Assembly: GCA_028289645.1 (NCBI GenBank)
Contig: JANQOK010000023.1
Span: forward strand, 248,001-312,000
DNA length: 64,000 nt
Direction: 5' to 3'
Source of the DNA: Anderseniella sp.
GTDB lineage: Bacteria > Pseudomonadota > Alphaproteobacteria > Rhizobiales > Aestuariivirgaceae
This document shows positions 12,114 through 24,474 of the stretch, one piece after another (the stretch's first letter is position 1; each line of letters begins with the position of its first letter). The notes under the pieces were generated by a model. The model had not been told where the DNA came from. It worked only from the letters and a program-made list of their open reading frames with translations, and ran no database searches. The position numbers and the translations under genes were made by a program.

Positions 12114-12528
12114 CGGCTGGTAACGCATAAATTTGATCCAACCACACGTCGTTGCAGTTGCAGCGGGCGCAGATTCGAAGAAAATCCGGTGTTTTAACCC
12201 CGGGAGGATGCCGGCGACCGATGCTTGGTCCGAACCTGGTTTCGCCGGGATTTCGCCGCGCGCGATAAGTGTAGGTGAGATTCCGGATACTACCTGAGCG
12301 AGGAAATGGGCCTCGCTGAAAATTAATTGCTATACTGATTAATACAATTAAAATTCATATATAACAATAACTTGTCGTTTCACGGCGTCGCCGTAACATG
12401 AACAGAACTTCAGTCTTTATAAAGATTGTCAGTTTACTTATCATATTTCATATGCGAAATGGCTTTAAAGGCGCCGGAGCAGGCGATCTGACGCCAAATA
12501 ACAAGTGGCCCAGGGTGGGAGATTTCAG
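12114..12528. other. intergenic region; AT-rich promoter zone of the 12.5-21.8 kb gene set
   Basis: 415 bp. The first 200 bp are GC-rich without recognisable features. Positions 12318-12372 are strikingly AT-rich (ATTAATTGC, TATACTGATTAATAC, ACAATTAAAATTCATATATAAC) and probably hold the promoter for the downstream operon. The TATACTGATTAAT element (12331-12343) recurs in near-identical form at 14239-14251. A small frame at 12398-12688 is not convincing. Confidence 0.5.
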
Positions 12529-13005
12529 GTGGGTTCAAACAACACCTCGCAGCATGATGCACGGCAACCAGGCGGCTCGGGAGACCGGGTGTACGACTAT
12601 ATTCGCCTGGTTGTCGCTGACAGCCGCTATCTGGACAGTGAGGCTGAGTGGCGCATCATCGACAATGCGGTGTTCCAGCTCGGAATGATGCCACTGGACG
12701 TTAAGAGTTACCTGCTCGGTGCTGCAACGCTCGGCGGATTTTCAACTGAGTCCATGATCACCAGGGTACTTAGCGATATTGCCGCCGGGATGCGGGCCAA
12801 ATCGTCCAGGATTTCCAAGGACCAATTCAAGTATCTGGTCGAGACGGCGATTGCCATGTCGCAGGATGAACTTTCCACAGACAAGGCTGAAAACCTCGCC
12901 AAAGCCGCGTGCGAGGGCGCCAAACTGCGGGCCCGCCGAAGGTGGCTCGTGGGAACACGGCGCTGGTACAATCGGATTTCGCCGTCCGACAAACAGACGG
13001 TGTGA
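12529..13005 (+). CDS. unknown soluble helical protein, first gene of the MlaFE-like operon
   Basis: 158 residues if read from the GTG at 12529, which has GGGAGA at a good distance; the frame opens at 12505. I do not recognise the family. The sequence is mostly helical and mildly acidic until a basic tail: YIRLVVADSRYLDSEAEWRIIDNAVFQLGM, LLGAATLGGFSTESMITRVLSDI, then RARRRWLVGTRRWYNRI. The alternation of helices with regularly spaced acidic residues recalls TerB-like folds, but no diagnostic motif was seen. Five bases separate it from the DUF4239 gene. Confidence 0.6.
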   Translation: MGSNNTSQHDARQPGGSGDRVYDYIRLVVADSRYLDSEAEWRIIDNAVFQLGMMPLDVKSYLLGAATLGGFSTESMITRVLSDIAAGMRAKSSRISKDQFKYLVETAIAMSQDELSTDKAENLAKAACEGAKLRARRRWLVGTRRWYNRISPSDKQTV

Positions 13006-13010
13006 AGATC

Positions 13011-13811
13011 ATGGCGCAGGATGTCTTTCAGGGAACCATACTGAACTGGATCGCGGCACAGTCGCTTGACGTTGCCTTCATTCTCATCGTGCTGCCGACC
13101 ATGGTGCTGGCGGTGGTGGGAACACTGGTGGTGCGCGGCATTTTCGGACTGATGATCGCGCCCGGCAGCACTGTCGGTGCGGCAAAGGCGGGTGCTGCGG
13201 CAGAGATCTACGCCGTTGTTCTCGGCTTTATAATCGTTTTCGGTTTTTCCGATTTCCAGGAAGCCAAACGGGATGTGCTGCAGGAAGTCACGGCGCTGGA
13301 ACGGCTGACCGCTCAGGCAAAACTGCTCGGCACAGACGCCTCCGGCGAGATCGCCACGGCAGTTGGAGAGTATGCCAGCGCCGTCGTTGTGCACGAGTGG
13401 CCGGTGATGGAGACGGGCAGGACCAGTCCTGAGGCCGAGGCGGAGCTCGCCCAGATGAGCAATGCGGTCATGAACCCTGCCGGTGGCGCCAACGCGTTGT
13501 CACAGTTCAGGCTTTCGGCGCTGCTTGATGACGTCGTGAAACTGCGGGTGGCACGATTGTCGGCCTCGCCAGACCCGGTTGTCTCAGGCCTGATCTTTCA
13601 GGTCCTGTTTGTGGGGGCGGCGTTGGCGCTGGTGTCAGGATGGTTCGTGCGCGGCCCGAGTGCGCTGGTTCATGTGCTGCTGTCCGCTATGCTTTCAGGT
13701 TCCGTCGTCGCGGTCATGATCCTGTCGGCACAGCTGCTTTATCCATTTTCAGGGCCGGTTTCGATTTCAGCCGAACCGTTCATGGAACTGGCCAAATTGG
13801 CGCAACAGTAG
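13011..13811 (+). CDS. DUF4239 (bestrophin-like domain) membrane protein
   Basis: 266 residues. Two N-terminal hydrophobic segments (LDVAFILIVLPTMVLAVVGTLVV; EIYAVVLGFIIVFGFSDF) are followed by a soluble helical part with the family's EVTALERL, EYASAVVVHEWPVMETGR and RLSALLDDVVKLR. Two more membrane segments and the closing YPFSGPVSISAEPFMEL complete the DUF4239 pattern. The function of the family is unknown; a channel-like role has been suggested from fold comparison. Second gene of the operon, 13 bp before the DUF6524 gene. Confidence 0.75.
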   Translation: MAQDVFQGTILNWIAAQSLDVAFILIVLPTMVLAVVGTLVVRGIFGLMIAPGSTVGAAKAGAAAEIYAVVLGFIIVFGFSDFQEAKRDVLQEVTALERLTAQAKLLGTDASGEIATAVGEYASAVVVHEWPVMETGRTSPEAEAELAQMSNAVMNPAGGANALSQFRLSALLDDVVKLRVARLSASPDPVVSGLIFQVLFVGAALALVSGWFVRGPSALVHVLLSAMLSGSVVAVMILSAQLLYPFSGPVSISAEPFMELAKLAQQ

Positions 13812-13824
13812 GGGGTGAAACACA

Positions 13825-14229
13825 GTGTTCGGGCCGGTGAATTTCGCGTTGCGTTGGATGTTCTCACTGTTTCTGGTTTTCGCCACCTACAATCCAAGCG
13901 GAGTGTCTTTCTATCATTGGGCGGTGAGTGGCTGGTCACCGCTTACGCTTGTCAGCGTTGTCGGCGTCGCCCTGTTGGCAATCTACGTCTTCCTGTTTAG
14001 GAGCACCTGGCGGTCCATAAAGCTGACCGGAATCATGATCGGTGCGGTTTTCATGGGGTTGTTCAACCTGATGCTGATTGACCTGGAGATCGTCGCGATT
14101 GACCGCGCTTCCATCGTGGTGGTGATGATCCTGGCATCGCTGGCAACGATCCTTTCAGTCGGTGTGTCTTTCTCTGCAATCAGGGCCCGCCTGGCCGGTC
14201 AAATCGACTCTGATGACGTCGGGCAGTAA
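13825..14229 (+). CDS. DUF6524 membrane protein, first copy
   Basis: 134 residues with four hydrophobic segments. The hallmark LRWMFSLFLVFATYNPSGVSFYHW near the N-terminus matches DUF6524, a small alphaproteobacterial inner-membrane family of unknown function. A second member with the same FATYNPS motif closes the gene set at 21357. The start is a GTG at 13825 with a G-rich stretch (GGGGGTG) upstream. Confidence 0.7.
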   Translation: MFGPVNFALRWMFSLFLVFATYNPSGVSFYHWAVSGWSPLTLVSVVGVALLAIYVFLFRSTWRSIKLTGIMIGAVFMGLFNLMLIDLEIVAIDRASIVVVMILASLATILSVGVSFSAIRARLAGQIDSDDVGQ

Positions 14230-14238
14230 GAAATGTGG

Positions 14239-14262
14239 TATACAGATTAATTATGATGTATA
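14239..14262. promoter_or_regulatory. inverted repeat TATACA-N12-TGTATA, possible operator
   Basis: Perfect 6-bp arms, TATACA at 14239-14244 and TGTATA at 14257-14262, separated by 12 bp, centred in the 82-bp gap between the first DUF6524 gene and the small exported protein gene. Its left part, TATACAGATTAAT, matches TATACTGATTAAT at 12331-12343 in all but one position. It may be an internal promoter or repressor site of the cluster. Confidence 0.4.
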
Positions 14263-14311
14263 GTGATTATCTAGACGAGTTTGTTGCGAATTTAACCTGT
14301 AGGGACGCGTT

Positions 14312-14593
14312 ATGAAAAAATCATCCAGAGTTGGGATTGCGCTTGCGCTTGGCCTGACCATGGCATCGTCTTTTGCGGTTTGGGAAGAAGACTCGAAGTC
14401 CGGAACGCCGTTCGGATTTCAAACCGCGCAAGCATCAATAACAGGCACGGCCGGCACTCGGGAAACCGTGCAACAGCGCGCGATCGTTCTGCGCCAGTCA
14501 GCACTGCGGAGCCGGCATAGAAGTGCGCTTATCTCCCGTGTTCGGCAACAGCTTCTGGATGCCGGGCCAATACCGGTTTCAGATGCGCGTTAA
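14312..14593 (+). CDS. small exported protein of unknown function
   Basis: 93 residues. The N-terminus MKKSSRVGIALALGLTMASS is a Sec signal peptide, with likely cleavage after an Ala-x-Ala (TAQA) near residue 40 or earlier. The mature part is short, Arg/Gln-rich and helical (RETVQQRAIVLRQSALRSRHRSALISRVRQQLLD). No family recognised. An AGGGA-like ribosome site precedes the ATG. It is 15 bp ahead of the repeat-containing exported protein and probably made with it. Confidence 0.6.
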   Translation: MKKSSRVGIALALGLTMASSFAVWEEDSKSGTPFGFQTAQASITGTAGTRETVQQRAIVLRQSALRSRHRSALISRVRQQLLDAGPIPVSDAR

Positions 14594-14608
14594 GGGAGAC
14601 ATGGGCAA

Positions 14609-15682
14609 ATGCCACGTTCGTCAATACTGCCGTTAGTCTTCTGCGCGGCCTTGTGCGCTGCTTCGCTTGGCATACCCGCTCAGGCGACGGAAGACGAGAC
14701 AAAACCACCAGCGTTGGCCGAAGACAGCACGCAGGCAGCACCAGGTGCTGACGAAGGTGCCGCAACCCAGTCCGAAAGTGTGCCGCTCCCGGACTCCACC
14801 AAGGCGGCAAATGTCGAAGCATCCGACGGCGCGTGGGAAATCAGCTTGCCGATGGATGCCATTGCCGGACATGTCGCGGCATTCAAGGCATTCATTCAAA
14901 AGCAGGCGGTTGATCCTACGGTCGAGTTCGCCGGCTCATCCGTGGATGTCGCCAATCAATCGGTCCAGTGGGCGATGGATGGTTCCGCCAAGTCCGTCAG
15001 CTGGGCGTGGGACGGATCAAGCAAGACCGTGAGCTGGGTCTTGGACGGATCCGTCAAGTCCGTGCGTTGGGTTTGGGACGGATCCACCGGTACGCTGAAC
15101 GCCGTTGTGGGCGGAATTGGTTCGTCAATGGGCGCGCTGTCGGAGACTGTCAAAAAATCCGCCTACTGGCCGGCAAACGCCATGGACAAGTTTGTGGAAG
15201 ACCTGCACAGCGACGAATTCGCCGAGTTTGCGCAACTGGTCGAAGATACCGGATTTGCGGTGGCCGATGTGAAGGTGGGGGTCGGGATCATCCCGGACCT
15301 GGCGATCGAGTTCAAACATGTCCGTGATCTCTCGGACAAGGAAATTGCAGAAGTCGACCGGCAGATCAATGAATACACATCACGCGCCAGCAAGGCAGCC
15401 GGATATATTGAATCAGTCATTCTGCATAACCTGGTTGACGCGGGCAGGTATGCCGGAAAGACCGATCTTTCCAGCGTGTCGATCAAGCTGTTTCCGCTTC
15501 CCGGCCTTGTCCTGAAGTTTGATCCTTTCGACTATGAGGAGCACAAGGCGATAAAACTGAAATCTGCATTCGATCTGGCGAACATAGCCACTGAAGCGGA
15601 AAAGAAACTGGAGCAGCGTCTGACAAATATCGAAGACGCGATCAAGAAACTGCATGAGTCCAAAGAGACGGACGCGAATTGA
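14609..15682 (+). CDS. exported protein with four tandem 11-residue repeats
   Basis: 357 residues. Signal peptide (LPLVFCAALCAASLGIPAQA, cleavage near residue 27), then a low-complexity acidic/Ala region to about residue 70. Residues 118-161 contain four consecutive 11-mers: SVQWAMDGSAK, SVSWAWDGSSK, TVSWVLDGSVK, SVRWVWDGSTG. Each has an invariant Trp at position 4 and Asp-Gly at 7-8, suggesting a small amphipathic or beta-solenoid stack. The C-terminal half is helical and charged with a final coiled-coil (ATEAEKKLEQRLTNIEDAIKKLHE). No family recognised. Presumably periplasmic. Confidence 0.7.
   Translation: MPRSSILPLVFCAALCAASLGIPAQATEDETKPPALAEDSTQAAPGADEGAATQSESVPLPDSTKAANVEASDGAWEISLPMDAIAGHVAAFKAFIQKQAVDPTVEFAGSSVDVANQSVQWAMDGSAKSVSWAWDGSSKTVSWVLDGSVKSVRWVWDGSTGTLNAVVGGIGSSMGALSETVKKSAYWPANAMDKFVEDLHSDEFAEFAQLVEDTGFAVADVKVGVGIIPDLAIEFKHVRDLSDKEIAEVDRQINEYTSRASKAAGYIESVILHNLVDAGRYAGKTDLSSVSIKLFPLPGLVLKFDPFDYEEHKAIKLKSAFDLANIATEAEKKLEQRLTNIEDAIKKLHESKETDAN
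14960..15091 (+). repeat. 33-bp tandem coding repeats, four copies
   Basis: DNA encoding the four 11-residue units of the exported protein. Units share the T/C-CGTCAG or GTGAGC...TGG...GACGGATC framework and differ at several positions, so the array is not freshly expanded. Confidence 0.7.
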
Positions 15683-15723
15683 TAGAATAGTTCAGGGAGA
15701 TATGTTCGCGGCAAGTTGGCACC

Positions 15724-16317
15724 ATGAATTTCACGCTGGTACTGATCGAGAATATCATTTTGTTCCTGCTGGTTCCGCGGGCATTGCGGACTGCGTCGCA
15801 AAAGGCCGTGCAGGCGATAGATGACCGCAACATGTTCGGTATTCCCTTCTGCAGCAGTGTCGCCACCGCATGCGGGATACTGCTGGCGATTGTAATCTTG
15901 TTGTGTGCCGGTGTTGCCGGCGATGCGGCTCCGTCCCGGTTATGGGGGTTCGATGGCCCGTGGCATACGGGGCGGCTGCTGGTGCTTGTGACGACTTACC
16001 TGTCGGCACTGGTGCAGGGCGGGATTGCAGAGCAGGCGAGTATCGTAATCTCCATCGTTACTCTTCTGCTTGTCAGCGCCGGAGGACTGACCCTGATAAA
16101 CGGGGTGGTTGCGGCTGCGGGCTGGCGGTCGATACAGGCGCTGCGCGGTCTGGCAACACATATCATACTGGCGGTCTCGAGTGCCCTGGTATTCGCGATC
16201 TGGGCTTTGACCGCGTTGTGGGCCGTGCACTGGCTCAATTTCTGGATATTCCTGGTGCTGCTCTGCGTCATTGAAATGCGTCGCCGTGAGACCGGCCCGG
16301 TGCGATTGTCGTTCTAG
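15724..16317 (+). CDS. polytopic membrane protein of unknown family
   Basis: 197 residues with about four strongly hydrophobic segments: MNFTLVLIENIILFLLVPRAL, GILLAIVILLCAGVAGD, a central SIVISIVTLLLVSAGGLTLINGVVAAAG, and ILAVSSALVFAIWALTALWAVHWLNFWIFLVLLCVI. The tail is short and basic. No family motif recognised. It sits between the repeat-containing exported protein and the membrane-anchored protein at 16362, so it is probably a membrane subunit of the same assembly. Confidence 0.6.
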   Translation: MNFTLVLIENIILFLLVPRALRTASQKAVQAIDDRNMFGIPFCSSVATACGILLAIVILLCAGVAGDAAPSRLWGFDGPWHTGRLLVLVTTYLSALVQGGIAEQASIVISIVTLLLVSAGGLTLINGVVAAAGWRSIQALRGLATHIILAVSSALVFAIWALTALWAVHWLNFWIFLVLLCVIEMRRRETGPVRLSF

Positions 16318-16361
16318 AAACATGCGGGGATTGGTGAACCAATGAGCAAGGGTCGGGCGGT

Positions 16362-17483
16362 ATGAATTCGGAGTCCAATGACACGGCGCATCTTTGGCAC
16401 AGACTGTCTGATCGTGCCCGGAATTGGGGCTTTGCGTCGGTGTTTTCAGCGCTCCTGCTGGCAGCAATAGCTGTCGGAGGTGCGGCGCTGGTGCCAGGCA
16501 GCCCATTGGCCGGCCTCGCAACAGCATACGTGGTCACGCCGGGACCCGTGCGGCTGGACCCTTCAGTTTACTTCTACGACGGGAGAAAGTACTCCCGCGC
16601 CGGCCGCGTCGTTGCCGCCGTTGGCTCCCGGCACAAGATCGAACTGATATCCGAGGTGGCGAAGCTGCAGGAAAGCGGCCTGGTGGCGGCGGTAACACCG
16701 GCAAACCTGGGACAGTTTATCAAGCTTCAATCACCGGAAGATCTGGATGCAATGCGTGCCGACCTGTCGGAGGCAGTGACCTCTTTGGTGGGCGACATTT
16801 TCACCATGCTCAGGGAAAACGGCCATAAAAAAACTTCCCGAGGGCCGCTGAGCTTGGCATTTGCGGAAACCATCGAAACACCGGGGCTGGCCGAATCACG
16901 CCTGGCGCTTTCGGATTTTCTGCACAATGAGATCAGCCCGCGGGTGTCAGGCGAGATCAAGACGGTGTTTCTCGACCGCGTCTCGACCGCGTTGAAGGTC
17001 ATCATCAAGGATGCACTGGAAAACTACGGGACCGATCTGGTCCGTGGCCGTTTCGACACGGCGCCCATTTCACATGCGATAGATGGAATGCTGGCGGATC
17101 CGCGAATGCTTGATCTGGCTGGCGAGGTACTGGGTGCCATGCTGGATGAACCGCAGGTGATGGACGCCACCCAGAAATTCGCGGCCAGATATTCGGAAAA
17201 CCTCTTCGACAGCTTTTCCAAACTGCCGAGCAAAACTGAAGATGTGCGCAGGCACCGCGCTGAAATGCTGGTGCGGAAATTCCTCAAAACCGTTGAAACG
17301 CTGATTTACCGCAACGATGCGGCCCATCCCGTGATCGTTGCCGTGGCCGGCAACGTGATGAACCGAAAGCGGGGCAGATCGGATGCGGTTCTGATCGTAA
17401 TGCAGGCGGGACAGGTGACCAACTGGGGCACTGACAAGAGCTTTGTGCCTGTCCGGTCGGGATGGCAGGTGACAAGTGATTAA
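16362..17483 (+). CDS. membrane-anchored, largely helical envelope protein next to MlaFE fusion
   Basis: 373 residues. One N-terminal membrane anchor (WGFASVFSALLLAAIAVGGAALV, about residues 22-45) is followed by a short segment with beta character (GPVRLDPSVYFYDGRKYSR) and then a long helical domain with recurrent leucines and a DRVSTALKVIIKDAL stretch. No recognised domain. Its topology (single N-terminal helix, large periplasmic part) and its 8-bp overlap with the ATPase-permease fusion are what one sees for MlaD/MCE subunits, but I cannot find an MCE motif. It may be a functional replacement; this is inference. Confidence 0.6.
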   Translation: MNSESNDTAHLWHRLSDRARNWGFASVFSALLLAAIAVGGAALVPGSPLAGLATAYVVTPGPVRLDPSVYFYDGRKYSRAGRVVAAVGSRHKIELISEVAKLQESGLVAAVTPANLGQFIKLQSPEDLDAMRADLSEAVTSLVGDIFTMLRENGHKKTSRGPLSLAFAETIETPGLAESRLALSDFLHNEISPRVSGEIKTVFLDRVSTALKVIIKDALENYGTDLVRGRFDTAPISHAIDGMLADPRMLDLAGEVLGAMLDEPQVMDATQKFAARYSENLFDSFSKLPSKTEDVRRHRAEMLVRKFLKTVETLIYRNDAAHPVIVAVAGNVMNRKRGRSDAVLIVMQAGQVTNWGTDKSFVPVRSGWQVTSD

Positions 17484-18930
17484 GTTTGAAGGCTTGTCAG
17501 TACAAAGGGGGCCGCAGGCAATCGTAAAAGATGTGGCGCTTGAGTTTCCAGATCACGGCATCACGACGATTATCGGGCCAAGTGGTGCCGGCAAGACGTC
17601 ATTCCTTTATGCTCTGGGCGGCATAGGCAAGGCAGTCGGTCTGACCGTGACCGGCAAGGTGGGCAACTCCAAAGGTCCACCGAAAGATCTGGCGGACGAC
17701 AGTGAACCGCGCGGCAGCATCGTGTTTCAGAGCCCGGCGCTTTATGACGAATTCTCGGTAAAGCAAAACCTCGATCTGGTGGCCAGCAACAACCCCGCGC
17801 CAGATGAAGCAAACCTGTCTGAAGTCTCGAAACTGCTTGAAGGAATCGAGCCCGATCAACTGCCGAATGCCCTGTCCGGCGGCCAGCGGCAGAGGGTGGC
17901 GATCGCCCGCAGCCTGTATGCGGACCACAATCTGATCCTGATGGATGAACCCAATTCCGGGCTGGACATCACGCGAGCCAGGGTGCTGGTTGATACGGTT
18001 CGCCGCGTTGCGCAGACGGGCCGCCATGTGGTGATTGCCGCTCATTATCCCGAGCCGTTCCTGAAGCATGCAACTCAGGTTCTGTTCCTGGACGGCAAGG
18101 GCAACATTGCTCCAATACCTGCCACGGCAGATGGCATTAGAAAAGCGTTTGAGGATGCCGAGAAGGCGGATGTTCCACAGCGACATTCCGGCTCTGTGGT
18201 GTCGATCCGCAGACATTCGGTGTCCTACTGGATACGCGAATTCTTCCGTCGTGAACTCTGGAGCCTGGTGATAGCACCGTCGAACATTCTTTACATTGGG
18301 ATAGCGTGCGCGCTGCTAGCCTTCACCGCATCTTACGTGACGGTCGCGCGCTACCCGTTTTCCGGGTTGCTGCTCGACCTGACGCTTGATGTACTGGTGG
18401 CCGAACTGGGGGCTGCGAATTTCCGCTTTACCGTACCGCTTTTCGTTTCGATTCTGGTTGCCGCCAGAAGCGGTGCGCTGTGTACCACTGACATCGCCAT
18501 GAAATCCCTGTCGAATGAGACGGTTGCGCTCAACCAGTTGCGGGTTCCGATACACCTGTACCGCGGCGCCAGCCTGCTTGTGGTGCTGGCGCTGTCGACA
18601 TTCATTCTTTACGTGATCGGGGTTGTCATCACCTTGCTGATGATCACGGTGGCAGTCGCGATTCCCACGGATGTGCCGCCGGCAATCCTGCGCTCGCTGG
18701 TGATCAGTGACATCGTGAACCAGGACGGTTCGCTGGCAAGCTGGTCATGGATACTGGCCAAGACGCTGTTTTCGGGCGCTGCCATTGGCGTGGTCAGCCT
18801 GGCTATAGGCCGGCGCAGTGTAAAGTCCGGCCGTGACATCACCGCATCCGCCTCTCTGGCCATTCTTGTCAGTGTGCTTGCGGTCATCGCGCTGCACTCG
18901 CTGCTGATCGTTATGGAGTTGGGAGTATGA
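17476..18930 (+). CDS. MlaF-MlaE fusion: ABC ATPase joined to MlaE-like lipid permease
   Basis: 484 residues. The N-terminal ATPase has Walker A GPSGAGKT (34-41), signature LSGGQRQR (133-140), Walker B LILMDEP (153-159) and H-loop His190. After a linker, residues 250-484 form a polytopic domain with the MlaE/Ttg2B pattern: VPLFVSILVAARSGALCTTDIA (320-341) aligns with the AGRxGxxxxAE loop, and the final WSWILAKTLFSGAAIGVVS plus ITASASLAILVSVLAVIALH match the MlaE C-terminus. MlaE proteins move phospholipids between membranes; here ATPase and permease are one chain, whereas Mla systems use two genes. GTG start overlapping the previous gene by 8 bp. Confidence 0.8.
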   Translation: MIKFEGLSVQRGPQAIVKDVALEFPDHGITTIIGPSGAGKTSFLYALGGIGKAVGLTVTGKVGNSKGPPKDLADDSEPRGSIVFQSPALYDEFSVKQNLDLVASNNPAPDEANLSEVSKLLEGIEPDQLPNALSGGQRQRVAIARSLYADHNLILMDEPNSGLDITRARVLVDTVRRVAQTGRHVVIAAHYPEPFLKHATQVLFLDGKGNIAPIPATADGIRKAFEDAEKADVPQRHSGSVVSIRRHSVSYWIREFFRRELWSLVIAPSNILYIGIACALLAFTASYVTVARYPFSGLLLDLTLDVLVAELGAANFRFTVPLFVSILVAARSGALCTTDIAMKSLSNETVALNQLRVPIHLYRGASLLVVLALSTFILYVIGVVITLLMITVAVAIPTDVPPAILRSLVISDIVNQDGSLASWSWILAKTLFSGAAIGVVSLAIGRRSVKSGRDITASASLAILVSVLAVIALHSLLIVMELGV

Positions 18931-19430
18931 GCAGTCAACGCGTCATAACCCGGCTGCTCAACCTCGTGTTCGACTGGCTCAAACAGGCGGCAAAATGGCC
19001 TGATGCGGTTTTCGACTGGACAACCACGACTTTCCGGCGGCAGCTGCAGCCGGAAACCGAAGAGGTTGACGATTGGGTCGATGACGGGCCAGCGCCGGTT
19101 GTGACCCAGCAGCCTACTGTTGGCAGCGATGCGGGCCAACCGCTGGAGATTGTGGTGTCCGAGGTCGTCTCTGATGAAAATGACGAGATCGGCCTGTTCA
19201 CCGGTCTTGGGGCGTTCCTGCGCACGGAAAAGCCACGCGACTACACGGTCGCGGACGGAGTGCTGCAGAAACTGGTTACGGAACTCAAAAACAAGGCTGT
19301 GCATCTGGGAGCAGATGCCGTTGTGTCCACCACGATCAAGCTGGTGCGTGGTGTCGATGACAGCGGGCAGCGCAGACTGAAGATGTCGGCGATCGGGACC
19401 GCCGTCCGACTGAAAGGCACGAACTCATGA
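18927..19430 (+). CDS. YbjQ-like (UPF0145) C-terminal domain protein
   Basis: 167 residues. The first ~75 are hydrophilic with an amphipathic helix (RVITRLLNLVFDWLKQAAKW) and an acidic linker. From residue 73, LEIVVSEVVSDENDEIGLFTGL leads to ADGVLQKLVTELKNKAVHLGADAVVSTTIKL and a closing MSAIGTAVRLK, the LxxxAxxLGADAVV...GTAV pattern of YbjQ/UPF0145 heavy-metal-binding-domain-like proteins, which form pentamers. Its start ATGA overlaps the fusion gene's stop, and its stop overlaps the next start, so it is translationally coupled to both. Confidence 0.6.
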   Translation: MSSQRVITRLLNLVFDWLKQAAKWPDAVFDWTTTTFRRQLQPETEEVDDWVDDGPAPVVTQQPTVGSDAGQPLEIVVSEVVSDENDEIGLFTGLGAFLRTEKPRDYTVADGVLQKLVTELKNKAVHLGADAVVSTTIKLVRGVDDSGQRRLKMSAIGTAVRLKGTNS

Positions 19431-20443
19431 GAGCATTCAAGCACGCGTTGCAGGTATTGTGCGCGACTACAGGCCAGATCCATCAAGATGCACAGGCTTT
19501 TCGGATGCGGGCGACAAAAAACGCCGGTGCTTCGCGCTTCACAGGTTGGCTGGCGGCGGCAGCAGCATTGGCATCTTGCCTGCTGGTTTCACCGGCACAA
19601 AGCCAGGATACGGCAACCACGCTTGCAACCCTGAATACCGTCCATGTTGCTGACGCCGGCGCGCCCTGGTTTACCTCTTGGTTTGAGGAAAAGCAGCAAT
19701 CCGAGGGCGCTTTGTTCAGGCCAAAGATCATGGTTTCGTCCGGCACCTCCCTGCTTGAACAGGTCGCGGCGGACAAGTCGTCAATCGGGCTTTTGAGCCA
19801 GGCGGAACTGGCAGCCGCGAAACCGTTGCCGGATACTATCAGCAGTGCGGCTTCCGGTCTCCAGGTGTGTGCAGCACTGGTGGTCCGCGATGCGGCTGCC
19901 AGCACGCAGGTTGGTGATCTGGCGCTGCTGCCGCAACCGGCCCAAATTGCCGCCACCGGCGATACGGCCGCAATCCTGCGGGCGCTGCTTGGCGCGCATG
20001 GTTTCGATGGCAGGCTGACCGTGTCCGACAGCTCGGTACCCGCCATGATGTCCGGCTTGTCATCGGGAACACTGGCGCTTGCGGCGCTGCCGGTTGAACC
20101 GGACGACGAAGTTCAGCTTCCCGACAATGCCGGAGATGTAAGGTTTATGGAACTGACTGCTGCGGCGGCCGTTGCGACAGCTGGTGAGAGGTTTGCCGTG
20201 AGCACCTATTCCACGAACAGTCTGCTGGGCGTATCGCTGGCATCCGGCATCAATACGGTGTGCGACGACATCATGATCGTTTCATCGGCAACAGGGCAGT
20301 TCAAACCTGGCCAGCTTGCCCGCCGTGACAGCACGACAATCGAAAAACCCAGTGATAGCGGTGGGTTGATCGACCGTACCAGGGCTTCACTGAATGATCT
20401 GTGGAACGTCATCATTGCGACATATCAAGGATCGGCACAATGA
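19427..20443 (+). CDS. exported TAXI-like substrate-binding protein
   Basis: 338 residues. A signal peptide lies at residues 36-60 (RFTGWLAAAAALASCLLVSPAQS); if the ATG at 19505 is used instead of the overlapping 19427 start, it becomes a normal N-terminal signal. The mature part resembles type 2 periplasmic binding proteins of the TAXI/phosphate class: SGTSLLEQVAADKSSIGLLSQAEL, a domain-crossover GLQVCAALVVRD, IAATGDTAAILRALLGAHG and TYSTNSLLGVSLAS. Likely a soluble or membrane-tethered periplasmic carrier for whatever the MlaFE-like fusion moves. The ligand is unknown. Confidence 0.6.
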   Translation: MRAFKHALQVLCATTGQIHQDAQAFRMRATKNAGASRFTGWLAAAAALASCLLVSPAQSQDTATTLATLNTVHVADAGAPWFTSWFEEKQQSEGALFRPKIMVSSGTSLLEQVAADKSSIGLLSQAELAAAKPLPDTISSAASGLQVCAALVVRDAAASTQVGDLALLPQPAQIAATGDTAAILRALLGAHGFDGRLTVSDSSVPAMMSGLSSGTLALAALPVEPDDEVQLPDNAGDVRFMELTAAAAVATAGERFAVSTYSTNSLLGVSLASGINTVCDDIMIVSSATGQFKPGQLARRDSTTIEKPSDSGGLIDRTRASLNDLWNVIIATYQGSAQ

Positions 20444-21360
20444 ACGGAAAATCCGGAAAGTCAGTCAAGAAGCCGGCTGCCAGGAAGCAGCGGGAACAGG
20501 CAACGGGCAAACATAAAGAAGCCAAGGAGAAGACCGTGGCGCAACCGGCCAACGGTCCGGCGTTGGCTGATGACACAGCGCCGTCCGACAGCAGGAAAGG
20601 TGCCGGCAGCGGCGGTTCGGTCGATGCGGTGCCAACTGAGGTCCCGGAGACAGCGGCGGCGGCGCCGGCATCCGGACAGTCGCGACGATGGTTGACGGAT
20701 GGCAATGTAACCCGCTTCATATCGGTCCTGGCGCTCCTCATCGCCTCGGCGTCACTGGCATACATTATCAGCATTGAACGCAATGGAGGCCTGCTGGCAA
20801 ATTCCGCGCGCGCCGTAATGGCAAAGGCCGGAATCGGCGCCGCGCCTACTGCACCGGACAAGGCAACGATGTTGTCTTCGATCCAGTATCTTTCATCAGC
20901 GGCGCGCGGATCTGAGCCGTTCAGCACTGAGCTCGCAGTGACCTACAAGATGGTTGGCGATCATCCGGAAATCGGCAAGGTGTTGGATGAAATCCTGCCT
21001 GGTGCTGAAACCGGCATACCCAGTGTGGAGGACGTCACGACCTCGTATGCGGATATCATATCAGAAATCTATGGATACGGACCCGGGCAACTGCTTGGCC
21101 AGGCTGCCTCCAGCATCACCTCCATCGTCGGGATCAAGACATCTGCGCAGCAGCGCCAGGCGACCATTGAACAAGTGACAGTGCTTGTTGCGGCCGGCAA
21201 GCTGGAGCAGGCCCTGCAGGCGCTGAACAAGCTTGACGGGCAATCCAGGCTGCCGTTCGCCGCGTGGCAGATCAAAGCCCAGAGGCGGGTTGCGCTCGAT
21301 GCCGCCGTTTCCGAAATCAAGCGGATTGCCTTCCTGTCCATCCTCGACGGAGCGTCATGA
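20440..21360 (+). CDS. mitofilin/COG4223-like single-span membrane protein
   Basis: 306 residues. Lys- and Ala/Pro-rich cytoplasmic N-terminus (about 90 residues), one membrane helix (FISVLALLIASASLAYIIS), then a helical periplasmic domain. PFSTELAVTYKMVGDHPEIGKVLDEIL, GIPSVEDVTTSYADIISEI and ALQALNKLDGQSRLPFAAWQIKAQRRVALDAAVSEIKRI follow the layout of the mitofilin domain of alphaproteobacterial Mic60-like proteins. Those proteins shape or tether the inner membrane. The canonical alphaproteobacterial Mic60 is linked to hem genes, which are absent here, so this is probably a specialised paralogue. Overlaps both neighbours by 4 bp (ATGA). Confidence 0.6.
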   Translation: MNGKSGKSVKKPAARKQREQATGKHKEAKEKTVAQPANGPALADDTAPSDSRKGAGSGGSVDAVPTEVPETAAAAPASGQSRRWLTDGNVTRFISVLALLIASASLAYIISIERNGGLLANSARAVMAKAGIGAAPTAPDKATMLSSIQYLSSAARGSEPFSTELAVTYKMVGDHPEIGKVLDEILPGAETGIPSVEDVTTSYADIISEIYGYGPGQLLGQAASSITSIVGIKTSAQQRQATIEQVTVLVAAGKLEQALQALNKLDGQSRLPFAAWQIKAQRRVALDAAVSEIKRIAFLSILDGAS

Positions 21361-21794
21361 GTTTTCCAAGCCACGCCGTTGTTCGCCGAAAACTCCCTTG
21401 GTGGGGGGTCGCGGGGCGGTTTCTGCTGGCCTGTTTTCTGGTGTTTGCGACCTATAATCCGTCCTACTACTCGCTTGCCACCCTGATTGTCAGTGATGTT
21501 TCAAACCCTTCGGCGCGGCTGTTCCTGGGGTTTTGTCTGTTGCTGGCATGGATCATCATCCTGCGCGTTTCCCTGGCCGGTCTCGATCGCCTGGCCTGGT
21601 ATGCAGTGTTGTCGTTTATCGTGATCCTGGGGTTGCTGGAGATCGAGTTCCAGCTGTTCAGGACCCTGAATTCATTTACTGCCATTTTGTTGTTGGAGTT
21701 GCTTGTGGCAGGGATACTGGCATTTGGATTAATACAGTCCTACTGGGTTCGCAGCATTGCCGGCCAGTCGCCGGTTGTGAAACATCCGCCTTGA
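21357..21794 (+). CDS. DUF6524 membrane protein, second copy
   Basis: 145 residues, four hydrophobic segments, with GRFLLACFLVFATYNPSYYSLATL near the N-terminus, the same FATYNPS signature as the protein encoded at 13825. The two copies differ elsewhere, so duplication is old. Last gene of the coupled set (ATGA overlap with the mitofilin-like gene). Function unknown. Confidence 0.7.
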   Translation: MSFPSHAVVRRKLPWWGVAGRFLLACFLVFATYNPSYYSLATLIVSDVSNPSARLFLGFCLLLAWIIILRVSLAGLDRLAWYAVLSFIVILGLLEIEFQLFRTLNSFTAILLLELLVAGILAFGLIQSYWVRSIAGQSPVVKHPP

Positions 21795-21948
21795 TGGGCG
21801 AACTTCCTGTGGGCTGGTTCGAGCTGTCAACTGCACAGCTTACGTTGCGTGACAATGCCACTTTGCCGGGTTAGTGTTTTGCAAACGCATGGCGAACGGC
21901 AACCGCTGTTTTGCGGAAACCGGACAAGCCAAACTGGAGGAAACCGAA

Positions 21949-22380
21949 TTGACGATCAGAAAAGCCGTTTCAGCATTGCTAGCCGGTATTGCCGGATTGA
22001 TGATCAGTGCACCGTCCCAGGCGGCGCCGGTTGCCGCACAGCAGTTGTCCGCGGTCACGGCATTCAGCGGCGGGGCGCACGTTGTGCAGGTGGGCAAGAA
22101 AAAGAAACGCCGGCTGAGGAGGTTTCGCAAGAGGCGCCGCGGTTTCAATCATTTCCATAACGGGTTTTACTATGCGCAGCCGTTCTGGAACTATGGCGAC
22201 TTCTACGAAGACGACTACGACTTTTATGACGATGACGATTATGACGAGCCGGATTATGCAGAGGGCGGCGATGCTCACGAAGACTGGTGCCGCAGGAAGT
22301 ACCGATCATACAAGGTGCGGACCGACACCTGGACCGACTATGACGGCAATACAAGGCGCTGCAGAAGCCCGTTCAACTGA
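21949..22380 (+). CDS. BA14K-like exported protein
   Basis: 143 residues. A TTG start at 21949 is chosen because GGAGG lies nine bases upstream and it yields a proper signal peptide (LTIRKAVSALLAGIAGLMISAPSQAA); ATG at 21892 and GTG at 21874 would add a poor N-terminus. The mature protein has a basic KKKKRRLRRFRKRRRG block, a Tyr/Asp-rich acidic linker, then HEDWCRRKYRSYKVRTDTW and DGNTRRCRSPF, which is the BA14K domain. BA14K proteins are envelope or lectin-like antigens of Rhizobiales. Convergent with the OmpA/MotB-like gene. Confidence 0.75.
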   Translation: MTIRKAVSALLAGIAGLMISAPSQAAPVAAQQLSAVTAFSGGAHVVQVGKKKKRRLRRFRKRRRGFNHFHNGFYYAQPFWNYGDFYEDDYDFYDDDDYDEPDYAEGGDAHEDWCRRKYRSYKVRTDTWTDYDGNTRRCRSPFN

Positions 22381-22413: not shown

Positions 22414-23451
22414 TCACCTGGTGGTGAGTTTCAGTTCGATGCGGCGATTGCGGGTCTTGGCTTCTTCCGTGGTGCCCGGATCTATCGGCTGAAACTCGCC
22501 AAATCCGGCAGCGACCAGATGTTGCGGAGGAATGCCCTGCTGGGCGAGTTCCTCGACAACTGCGATGGCGCGGGCAGACGACAACACCCAGTTTGACGGG
22601 AATTGGGGCGTGTTGATCGGGTCATCGTCAGTATGGCCATCGACCTGCAGAACCCAGTTGAGATCGTCCGGGATTTCGCGCACCAGTTGCTGCATGGCCA
22701 CGGCCAGCTTGGCAATTTCCTGCTGACCTGTCGGCGACAGTGCGGCTTCAGCCTTGCCGAACAGGACTTCGGACTGGAACACGAAACGGTCGCCGACAAC
22801 CCTGATATCGTCACGATTGGCCAGGATACGGCGCAGCCGGCCGAAGAACTCCGACCTGAACCGATTCAGTTCCTGTACCCGCTGCGCCAGTGCGACGTTG
22901 AGACGGCGGCCAAGGTCGACGATCTGCGAGCGGCTTTCCTGGTCCTGTTTTTCGGCCGCTTCAAGCGCGTCATTCAAGGCACCGATCTGCCTGCGCAGGG
23001 CTGCAATCTGCTGGTTGAGCAGTTCCACCCGCGCCAGTGCCTCGGAAGATACTTTCTTTTCACCCTCGAGCCTCTGCTGTAGTGCCGACAACTGGTTGCC
23101 GGCCTCGTTGCCCTGCGACCTGAAGGTATCGACAATGCCCTGCAGCTGGCTGGTCTCGTCGCGGGCGGACCGCAGGTCATCGGTGAGCGCGGCAAGGGTG
23201 GTTTCTATTTCGGCCTTGGACGATTTTTCCAGCGCGAGCAGTTCGGTCAATTCGCTGATCTCAGACCGCAGTCTCGACAGTGCGCTGTCCTGACCGGAGA
23301 TTTCCCGCGCCTGAAGGAACTGGGTGATCATGAACACTGACAAGAGAAACGTAATGACCAGCAACAGTTGCGCCATGGCATCCACGAAGCCTGGCCAGTA
23401 AAAACCGGAACTGTCCTGACCACGCCTGCGTCCTCTGCCGAGACCTGCCAC
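22414..23451 (-). CDS. MotB/OmpA-like peptidoglycan-binding membrane protein
   Basis: 345 residues. One N-terminal membrane helix (YWPGFVDAMAQLLLVITFLLSVFMITQFL), a long coiled coil (residues ~50-185) and an OmpA-like domain at the C-terminus: RFVFQSEVLFGKAEAALSP, VDGHTDDDPINTPQFPSNWVLSSARA, GFGEFQPIDPGTTEEAKTRNRRIEL. It pairs with the TolQ/MotA-like protein encoded 3 bp upstream; the pair should form a proton-driven stator-like complex linking inner membrane to cell wall. The pair is conserved in Rhizobiales beside suhB and efp; its exact role is unknown. Confidence 0.85.
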   Translation of the reverse strand: MAGLGRGRRRGQDSSGFYWPGFVDAMAQLLLVITFLLSVFMITQFLQAREISGQDSALSRLRSEISELTELLALEKSSKAEIETTLAALTDDLRSARDETSQLQGIVDTFRSQGNEAGNQLSALQQRLEGEKKVSSEALARVELLNQQIAALRRQIGALNDALEAAEKQDQESRSQIVDLGRRLNVALAQRVQELNRFRSEFFGRLRRILANRDDIRVVGDRFVFQSEVLFGKAEAALSPTGQQEIAKLAVAMQQLVREIPDDLNWVLQVDGHTDDDPINTPQFPSNWVLSSARAIAVVEELAQQGIPPQHLVAAGFGEFQPIDPGTTEEAKTRNRRIELKLTTR

Positions 23452-23454
23452 GGC

Positions 23455-24474
23455 CTAACTCCGGCCCCGGCCCGGAGGCGCACCGACACGGGCCAGCATG
23501 CGCTTGATTTCAGCGCTTTGCTCCGACTGCTGCTGTGCCCATTGGCGTACGACCTTCTGCTCTTCGCGCATCTGTTGCACGAGCCCATGTACCGCACCGG
23601 CAAGCTGCTCCATGGATTCCGCGCTTTGCGGTCCTGCGCCATTGGACTGCACGGCCGTTTCAAGCGTCCGGTTGATGCGGTCCATGCCAGAGCGAAGCGT
23701 CGACATTTCAGCCTGAATGTGCGGCGGCAGATCGACGGTGCTGGCATATTCGCCAGCGTCAATATCGGTCAGCGTGGCGAGCCAGTCTTCCAGATCGTTG
23801 TAGAACCGGTTCTGCGCCTGCGAAGCCTGCAACTCCAGAAAGCCGAGGACCAGTGAGCCTGCAAGGCCGAACAGGGACGATGAAAATGACGTTCCCATGC
23901 CGGCAAGCGGCGCTTCAAGGCCGGCCTTAAGCTCTTCAAACACGGTGCCGGACTGCGCGGTCGAGATGTTGAGGGTCCGGATCGTCTCTCCGACTGCGGA
24001 CACGGTCTGCAACAGTCCCCAGAACGTGCCGAGCAACCCCAAGAAAATCAGCAGGCCGATCATGTAGCGTGAGATATCGCGGGCTTCATCGAGACGTGAG
24101 GCCAACGAGTCGAGCAACGACCGCAAGGTGATCGGCGACAGAATAGTCAGGCCCTCACGATCGCGAAGCTGGGCTGCCATGGGCGCCAGCAGCCGCGGGA
24201 TGTGCGGAATTTCCAGGCCCGGATTTGCAATTCTGAAGCTGTTGACCCAGTTCACTTCCGGCCACAGCCGGAACACCATGCGAAACGTGTATGCGATGCC
24301 GAGCAGCAGGACCACGATGATGAGGCCGTTAAGGCCCGGGTTGGCCATGAAGGCAATCTGAATGTTGGGAAACAGAACGGCCGCGCCGATGCAGATAAGA
24401 ATGGTGAAAACCGCCATTCGCACGAGATACACCCGCGGCAGTTCCAAGACTTTCAGATGATCCGATGCCAGCAT
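23455..24474 (-). CDS. TolQ/ExbB/MotA-like proton channel protein
   Basis: 339 residues. Membrane segments at about 20-38, 45-65, 140-160 and 195-220. The family loop is seen in RYMIGLLIFLGLLGTFWGLLQTVSAVGETIRTL and in LKAGLEAPLAGMGTSFSSSLFGLAGSLVLGFLELQASQAQNRFY, a MotA/TolQ/ExbB channel arrangement. A helical C-terminal tail follows (MSTLRSGMDRINRTLETAVQSN, MREEQKVVRQWAQQQSEQ). It lies upstream of and is cotranscribed with the OmpA/MotB-like gene. Not Zorya ZorA (see rejected). Confidence 0.85.
   Translation of the reverse strand: MLASDHLKVLELPRVYLVRMAVFTILICIGAAVLFPNIQIAFMANPGLNGLIIVVLLLGIAYTFRMVFRLWPEVNWVNSFRIANPGLEIPHIPRLLAPMAAQLRDREGLTILSPITLRSLLDSLASRLDEARDISRYMIGLLIFLGLLGTFWGLLQTVSAVGETIRTLNISTAQSGTVFEELKAGLEAPLAGMGTSFSSSLFGLAGSLVLGFLELQASQAQNRFYNDLEDWLATLTDIDAGEYASTVDLPPHIQAEMSTLRSGMDRINRTLETAVQSNGAGPQSAESMEQLAGAVHGLVQQMREEQKVVRQWAQQQSEQSAEIKRMLARVGAPPGRGRS

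Follow-up and report, generated by a model that had tools for sequence, protein, structure and literature searches.

An operon built around an MlaF-MlaE fusion: a conserved gene neighborhood and candidate accessory lipid transport system

The window considered here is a 64,000-nucleotide (nt) stretch of DNA from the alphaproteobacterium Anderseniella sp. (Aestuariivirgaceae), and our subject is an operon within it whose central gene encodes an MlaF-like ATPase fused to an MlaE-like permease. This copy of the system is on contig 5, and the genome measures 4.8 Mb. According to the list of open reading frames (ORFs) of the window, the operon consists of twelve genes (g1 to g12), all on the plus strand, from 12505 to 21794. 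An initial inspection (the sequence-only reading) had described eleven genes on one strand with short gaps or overlaps; the strand and the packing are as described, but the count becomes twelve when the small ORF at 14312-14593 is included. The five consecutive overlaps reported in that inspection are present, chaining the last six genes (g7 to g12) from 17476 to 21360. The first is an 8-nt overlap of g7 and g8 (17476-17483), with GTG as the start codon of g8, and the other four are ATGA overlaps (18927-18930, 19427-19430, 20440-20443 and 21357-21360). The upstream half of the operon is close-packed but without overlaps, with gaps of 5, about 13, 82, 15, 41 and 44 nt.

The proposed fusion of an ABC-type ATPase with an MlaE permease in g8 (17476-18930) is borne out by matches to PF00005 (65.8 bits) and to PF02405, the MlaE family (31.1 bits, compared with a curated cut-off of 22.5). 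In alignments, the Walker A, LSGGQ, Walker B and H-loop motifs of the ATPase are all intact. The same genome carries a separate, canonical MlaE elsewhere (264 bits), which a permease profile of the fusion family recovers at 2.6e-8. Because the ATPase domain of a full-length query swamps searches with ordinary ABC proteins, we searched with the permease part or with the permease profile. Fusion homologues were found at 32 loci, in eight family-level groups of two classes. The window fusion is 25-30% identical to every other copy and occupies the longest branch.

The distribution of the fusion is patchy, as expected of an accessory system. It was not found in 68 other genomes of the window's own family, five of the same genus included. 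The permease profile detected it in six further genomes of the class sample, in 17 of 82 Azospirillum-family genomes, and in 2 of 7 and 9 of 36 genomes of two other orders. Outside the class it occurs in one genome (G431), the only positive among 398 genomes of the wider phylum. The permease query has a sole plasmid match, to a remote homologue carried by pAB510b of Azospirillum, where the fusion is flanked by two DUF6524 genes, by homologues of g1, g6, g7 and g11, and by an MlaA gene. Plasmid searches with the window's g7 and g5 proteins gave no matches. A match in genome G660 was dropped, as its ORFs are those of an ordinary-looking Mla operon. Recent transfer was also considered, and base composition gives no sign of it, the guanine-plus-cytosine content of the locus being that of its surroundings. 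One fusion gene (genome G1165, L125:8810-10394) is split over two reading frames, which reflects either a frameshift or an assembly error.

The sequence-only reading had proposed clustering fusion homologues by gene neighborhood, and we did so by iterated hidden Markov model (HMM) searches in all reading frames of the 32 fusion loci. The most constant partner is the g7 protein, hereafter P7 (16362-17483). Its gene immediately precedes the fusion, usually overlapping it, in 29 of the 29 loci that have upstream DNA; in the three loci that lack it, a contig edge lies upstream of the fusion. In Azospirillum sp. B510, the P7 and fusion genes are AZL_RS21555 and AZL_RS33575. Relatives of g11 occur in 23 of the 32 loci, DUF6524 proteins in 21, g1 in 21 and g6 in 16. 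MlaA (PF04333), the outer-membrane partner of the Mla system, is encoded in 12. Further recurrent families are cl6 (11 loci), a TPR-like protein (10), x11590 (9), a ParA/MinD-like ATPase (8), the g5 domain (6), Bestrophin-like proteins (5) and PBP_like_2 proteins (4). In total, nine of the twelve window genes represent families found again, with their order reshuffled, near the fusion genes of distant genomes. The system's families are all missing from six unrelated control loci, which measure up to 20 kb. A conserved system is thus well supported, and the suggestion that the operon is a candidate undescribed system holds, as the fusion is accompanied by the same partners in genomes far removed from this one. 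The small family cl6 was compared with the window's YbjQ-like protein and rejected as its counterpart (hhalign 0.1%). The ParA/MinD-like ATPase adjoins the system in L069, L070, L071, L118-L120, L122 and L125, and it could conceivably position the machine within the cell.

DUF6524 and the fusion also co-occur without linkage. Among the 82 Azospirillum-family genomes, DUF6524 is present in 17 of 17 fusion carriers compared with 6 of 65 non-carriers, and within the main genus in 16 of 16 fusion-positive compared with 1 of 29 fusion-negative genomes. Among the six DUF6524-positive "non-carriers", G1087 does encode P7, together with a fusion truncated where its contig ends. In four genomes (G755, G1060, G1073 and G1101), a DUF6524 pair lies on a different contig from the fusion and adjoins g1, g6, a TPR-like gene and a second MlaA gene. 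Without a shared function, this pattern is difficult to account for. Two further loci, L161 (G1135) and L162 (G1132), contain clusters of MlaA, PBP, two DUF6524, cl6, g6, g11 and TPR-like genes. The fusion was not detected in the G1135 genome, whose cluster may be served by a replacement transporter or by one that has diverged further.

P7 sits at the gene position of MlaD. All 30 carrier genomes searched have PF02470 (MCE) genes, but none of those listed is closer to the fusion than about 50 kb; the window genome has one, on another contig. An MCE profile built for this work has no match in the window or in the 32 loci, none of which is an ordinary Mla operon with a recognizable MCE gene. In a separate, independent comparison of profiles, the window's P7 matches the P7-family profile over 335 columns (hhalign 97.3%, E 1.7e-11). 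A structural model built for the G755 homologue from 27 sequences, with a predicted local distance difference test (pLDDT) value of 79.7, has a single transmembrane (TM) helix, a beta domain and helices of up to 49 residues. A fold search with the whole model is dominated by its long helices and yields nothing meaningful, and the beta domain was also predicted alone (pLDDT 71.5). Compared with known structures, this domain gives a Z value of 5.4 with Mce4A (root-mean-square deviation 3.3 over 62 residues). Other MCE structures score 4.5 and 4.5 (MlaFEDB chains of two species), 4.4 (LetB) and 4.2 (MlaFEDB again), and the deviations for Mce4A, MlaD and LetB are 3-4. Five MCE entries thus stand in the first 14 rows of 995 chains, at Z values that are low and tied with those of unrelated barrels.

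The predicted P7 beta domain appears to resemble MCE domains weakly in structure, and not in sequence. Profile comparison detects no significant homology between P7 and MCE proteins; the best local alignment places IGRV of P7 on the VGxV motif of MCE, and a reversed control scores equally. The beta domain has no match among PDB sequences. With Z values weak and tied, and sequence profiles silent, the idea that P7 is a cryptic MCE protein amounts to a lead rather than a result, and P7 is a candidate substitute for MlaD.

The g11 protein (20440-21360) has one hydrophobic segment, consistent with a single TM anchor, and a mitofilin (Mic60)-type C-terminal domain. Its description as mitofilin-like holds at the level of the family: PF09731 recognizes 16 of 21 homologues, the best of them at 1.2e-9. 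The window protein alone has no PF09731 match, so that its link to mitofilin runs through its relatives. Two DUF6524 membrane proteins had been recognized in the operon, and both assignments agree with Pfam (PF20134, cut-off 27): g3 (13825-14229) scores 119.7 bits and g12 (21357-21794) 62 bits.

Among the other recurrent families, g1 (12505-13005) encodes a small soluble protein of about 138-166 amino acids, its start being uncertain, that represents a new family without a Pfam match; a RRRWLVGTRRWYNRI-type motif can be read at its C-terminus. In one clade (L069:10090-11007 and relatives), the g1 domain carries a C-terminal extension, and a second, stand-alone g1 copy lies a few kilobases away. 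The g6 protein (15724-16317) is a polytopic membrane protein with about six hydrophobic segments. The g2 product (13011-13811), called DUF4239 in the sequence-only reading, does match that family (PF14023, 111 bits, cut-off 32), which is now named Bestrophin-like; homologues occur in four loci besides the window. The exported g5 protein (14609-15682) has a signal-like hydrophobic segment at residues 6-24 and, as originally noted, 11-residue repeats. Four copies (SVQWAMDGSAK...) are visible, with W and DGS conserved, ahead of a C-terminal domain that recurs elsewhere. The repeats were not seen in the g5 homologues.

The remaining three genes are specific to the window. The small, possibly exported g4 protein (14312-14593) has no homologues by iterated HMM searches of the 32 loci, and the g9 family was not found in other loci by the same searches. 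The g9 product (18927-19430) is YbjQ-like as proposed, at a score barely above the cut-off (PF01906, 24.6 bits compared with 23). The g10 product (19427-20443) could be assigned to no family, and the TAXI-like (solute-binding) label once given to it finds no support in Pfam, NCBIfam or PDB sequences. Immediately after the operon lies a gene for a BA14K-like exported protein (21874-22380). Just downstream, a convergent two-gene pair on the minus strand (22414-24474) encodes an OmpA-family coiled-coil protein and a MotA/TolQ-like protein. In three Azospirillum-family genomes (L042:15328-16416, and also L106 and L107), a protein that reads as similar to pentameric ligand-gated ion channels is encoded downstream of the system.

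We favor, with reasonable though not high confidence, the interpretation that these genes constitute an accessory Mla-like system for trans-envelope lipid transport. Lipid transport is probable, and phospholipid is the probable cargo because MlaE permeases and MlaA, as known families, handle phospholipids. We infer the following assembly. The inner-membrane ABC core would consist of two g8 chains, each contributing an ATPase and an MlaE-type permease. P7, anchored by its one TM helix, would occupy MlaD's site on the permease, with its MCE-like beta domain above the lipid exit and its long helices extending into the periplasm. It could thereby guide phospholipid from the permease into the periplasm. 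The g11 protein, the two DUF6524 proteins, g6 and g1 may organize or regulate the complex at zones of contact between the inner and outer membranes, and g5 and similar exported proteins may act in the periplasm. In many relatives the MlaA lipoprotein would provide the outer-membrane end, and the window system would need one from elsewhere in its genome. The model is compatible with either direction of transport. As a tentative extension, P7, as a cryptic MCE-like needle, might together with the mitofilin relative bridge the MlaFE fusion to MlaA, joining lipid transport to Mic60-type contact sites. If true, this would offer a possible bacterial parallel to the mitochondrial lipid flow organized around MICOS.

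The sequence-only reading had also arrived at a trans-envelope machine for lipids or other hydrophobic solutes that couples transport to membrane shape. The lipid part has become likelier through the MlaA genes in 12 loci and those beside unlinked DUF6524 pairs. Mitofilin shapes mitochondrial membranes, and its relative g11 is the one element that hints at coupling to membrane shape. Several observations count against an Mla-like lipid transporter, in addition to the low Z values and the profile comparisons of P7. The likeness of g8 to MlaE is distant (E about 1e-7). No MlaA gene is present in the window, the remainder of the genome not having been searched, and neither the MlaB (STAS) nor the MlaC family is represented among the window genes, leaving the locus without any of the three. 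Also, g4, g9 and g10 do not recur, and the Fisher value for co-occurrence of DUF6524 with the fusion in the 82 genomes (6e-13) overstates independence because the genomes are related.

The same conserved envelope system might instead export or import some other hydrophobic or small molecule, with MlaA as an incidental guest. MlaA is missing from 20 of the 32 loci, and the recurrent solute-binding proteins would suit an importer: PBP_like_2 proteins occur in four loci, some carrying or adjoining the g5 domain. Moreover, the MlaE-type fold has distant relatives among other ABC exporters (PMC7790496). However, the binding proteins are rarer than MlaA, which recurs beside DUF6524 in separate loci of the same genomes, and the MlaE-type permeases in the literature we found act in MCE lipid systems. 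We regard a different cargo as unlikely. Quite improbable, in our judgment, is a regulatory or sensory device in which the ATPase-MlaE core drives P7 and the mitofilin relative by mechanotransmission, so as to remodel the envelope or activate enzymes. FtsEX is a precedent for such mechanotransmission, and the long helical P7 with its anchored partner, the many membrane and periplasmic partners of no known role and the ParA/MinD-like ATPase in eight loci would fit. However, the MlaE domain speaks for lipid handling, and so do the MlaA partners and the MCE-like beta domain. Last, unrelated envelope genes might have been pooled by chance in one operon of this genome, as the window-specific g4, g9 and g10 and the absence of the fusion from the 68 other genomes of the family could suggest. 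This we consider extremely unlikely, given the recurrence near the fusion of so many of the operon's families in distant genomes, reshuffled and co-occurring even when unlinked, and given control loci devoid of them.

The route and direction of phospholipids across the bacterial periplasm are still argued. MlaE-type transporters described so far pair with an MCE protein, and a natural variant such as this one, with fused ABC subunits, a mitofilin relative and no recognizable MCE gene, lets these roles be separated. The system also supplies a first context for DUF6524, for which we found no naming paper in the literature searched, and for several unnamed families. In addition, it offers a connection, open to testing, of Mic60-type proteins to lipid traffic, within the class of bacteria from which mitochondria arose.

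The literature that we found on MlaFE fusions and on MlaE systems without MCE proteins describes no such gene set. Like the Escherichia coli Mla system (MlaFEDB-MlaC-MlaA), the system combines an MlaF-type ATPase with an MlaE-type permease, has a gene for a single-TM periplasmic subunit adjoining the permease and encodes MlaA in 12 related loci. Unlike in E. coli, the ATPase and permease are fused, no MCE, MlaB or MlaC gene is recognizable, and mitofilin, DUF6524 and other new partners are present. In the "true Mla" operons surveyed, MlaE, MlaD and MlaC always occur together (PMC7790496). Because recognizable MCE, MlaB and MlaC genes are wanting, we do not file the system as Mla. The Brucella Mpc system, a chimera of Mla and Pqi, likewise has an MlaFE-type core and is alphaproteobacterial, but its four-gene operon encodes a recognizable MCE domain and a PqiC-like lipoprotein, and mitofilin or DUF6524 partners are not described for it (PMC12436622). 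In its predicted architecture, P7 combines a TM helix and a small beta domain with long helices, as do the needle-bearing MCE proteins, among them MpcD of Brucella, Mce1 and TGD2 (PMC12436622). Finally, Mic60/mitofilin of Alphaproteobacteria and mitochondria has one TM anchor and the mitofilin domain at the C-terminus in common with the g11 family, but g11 is a divergent relative that is encoded beside a lipid-type ABC transporter.

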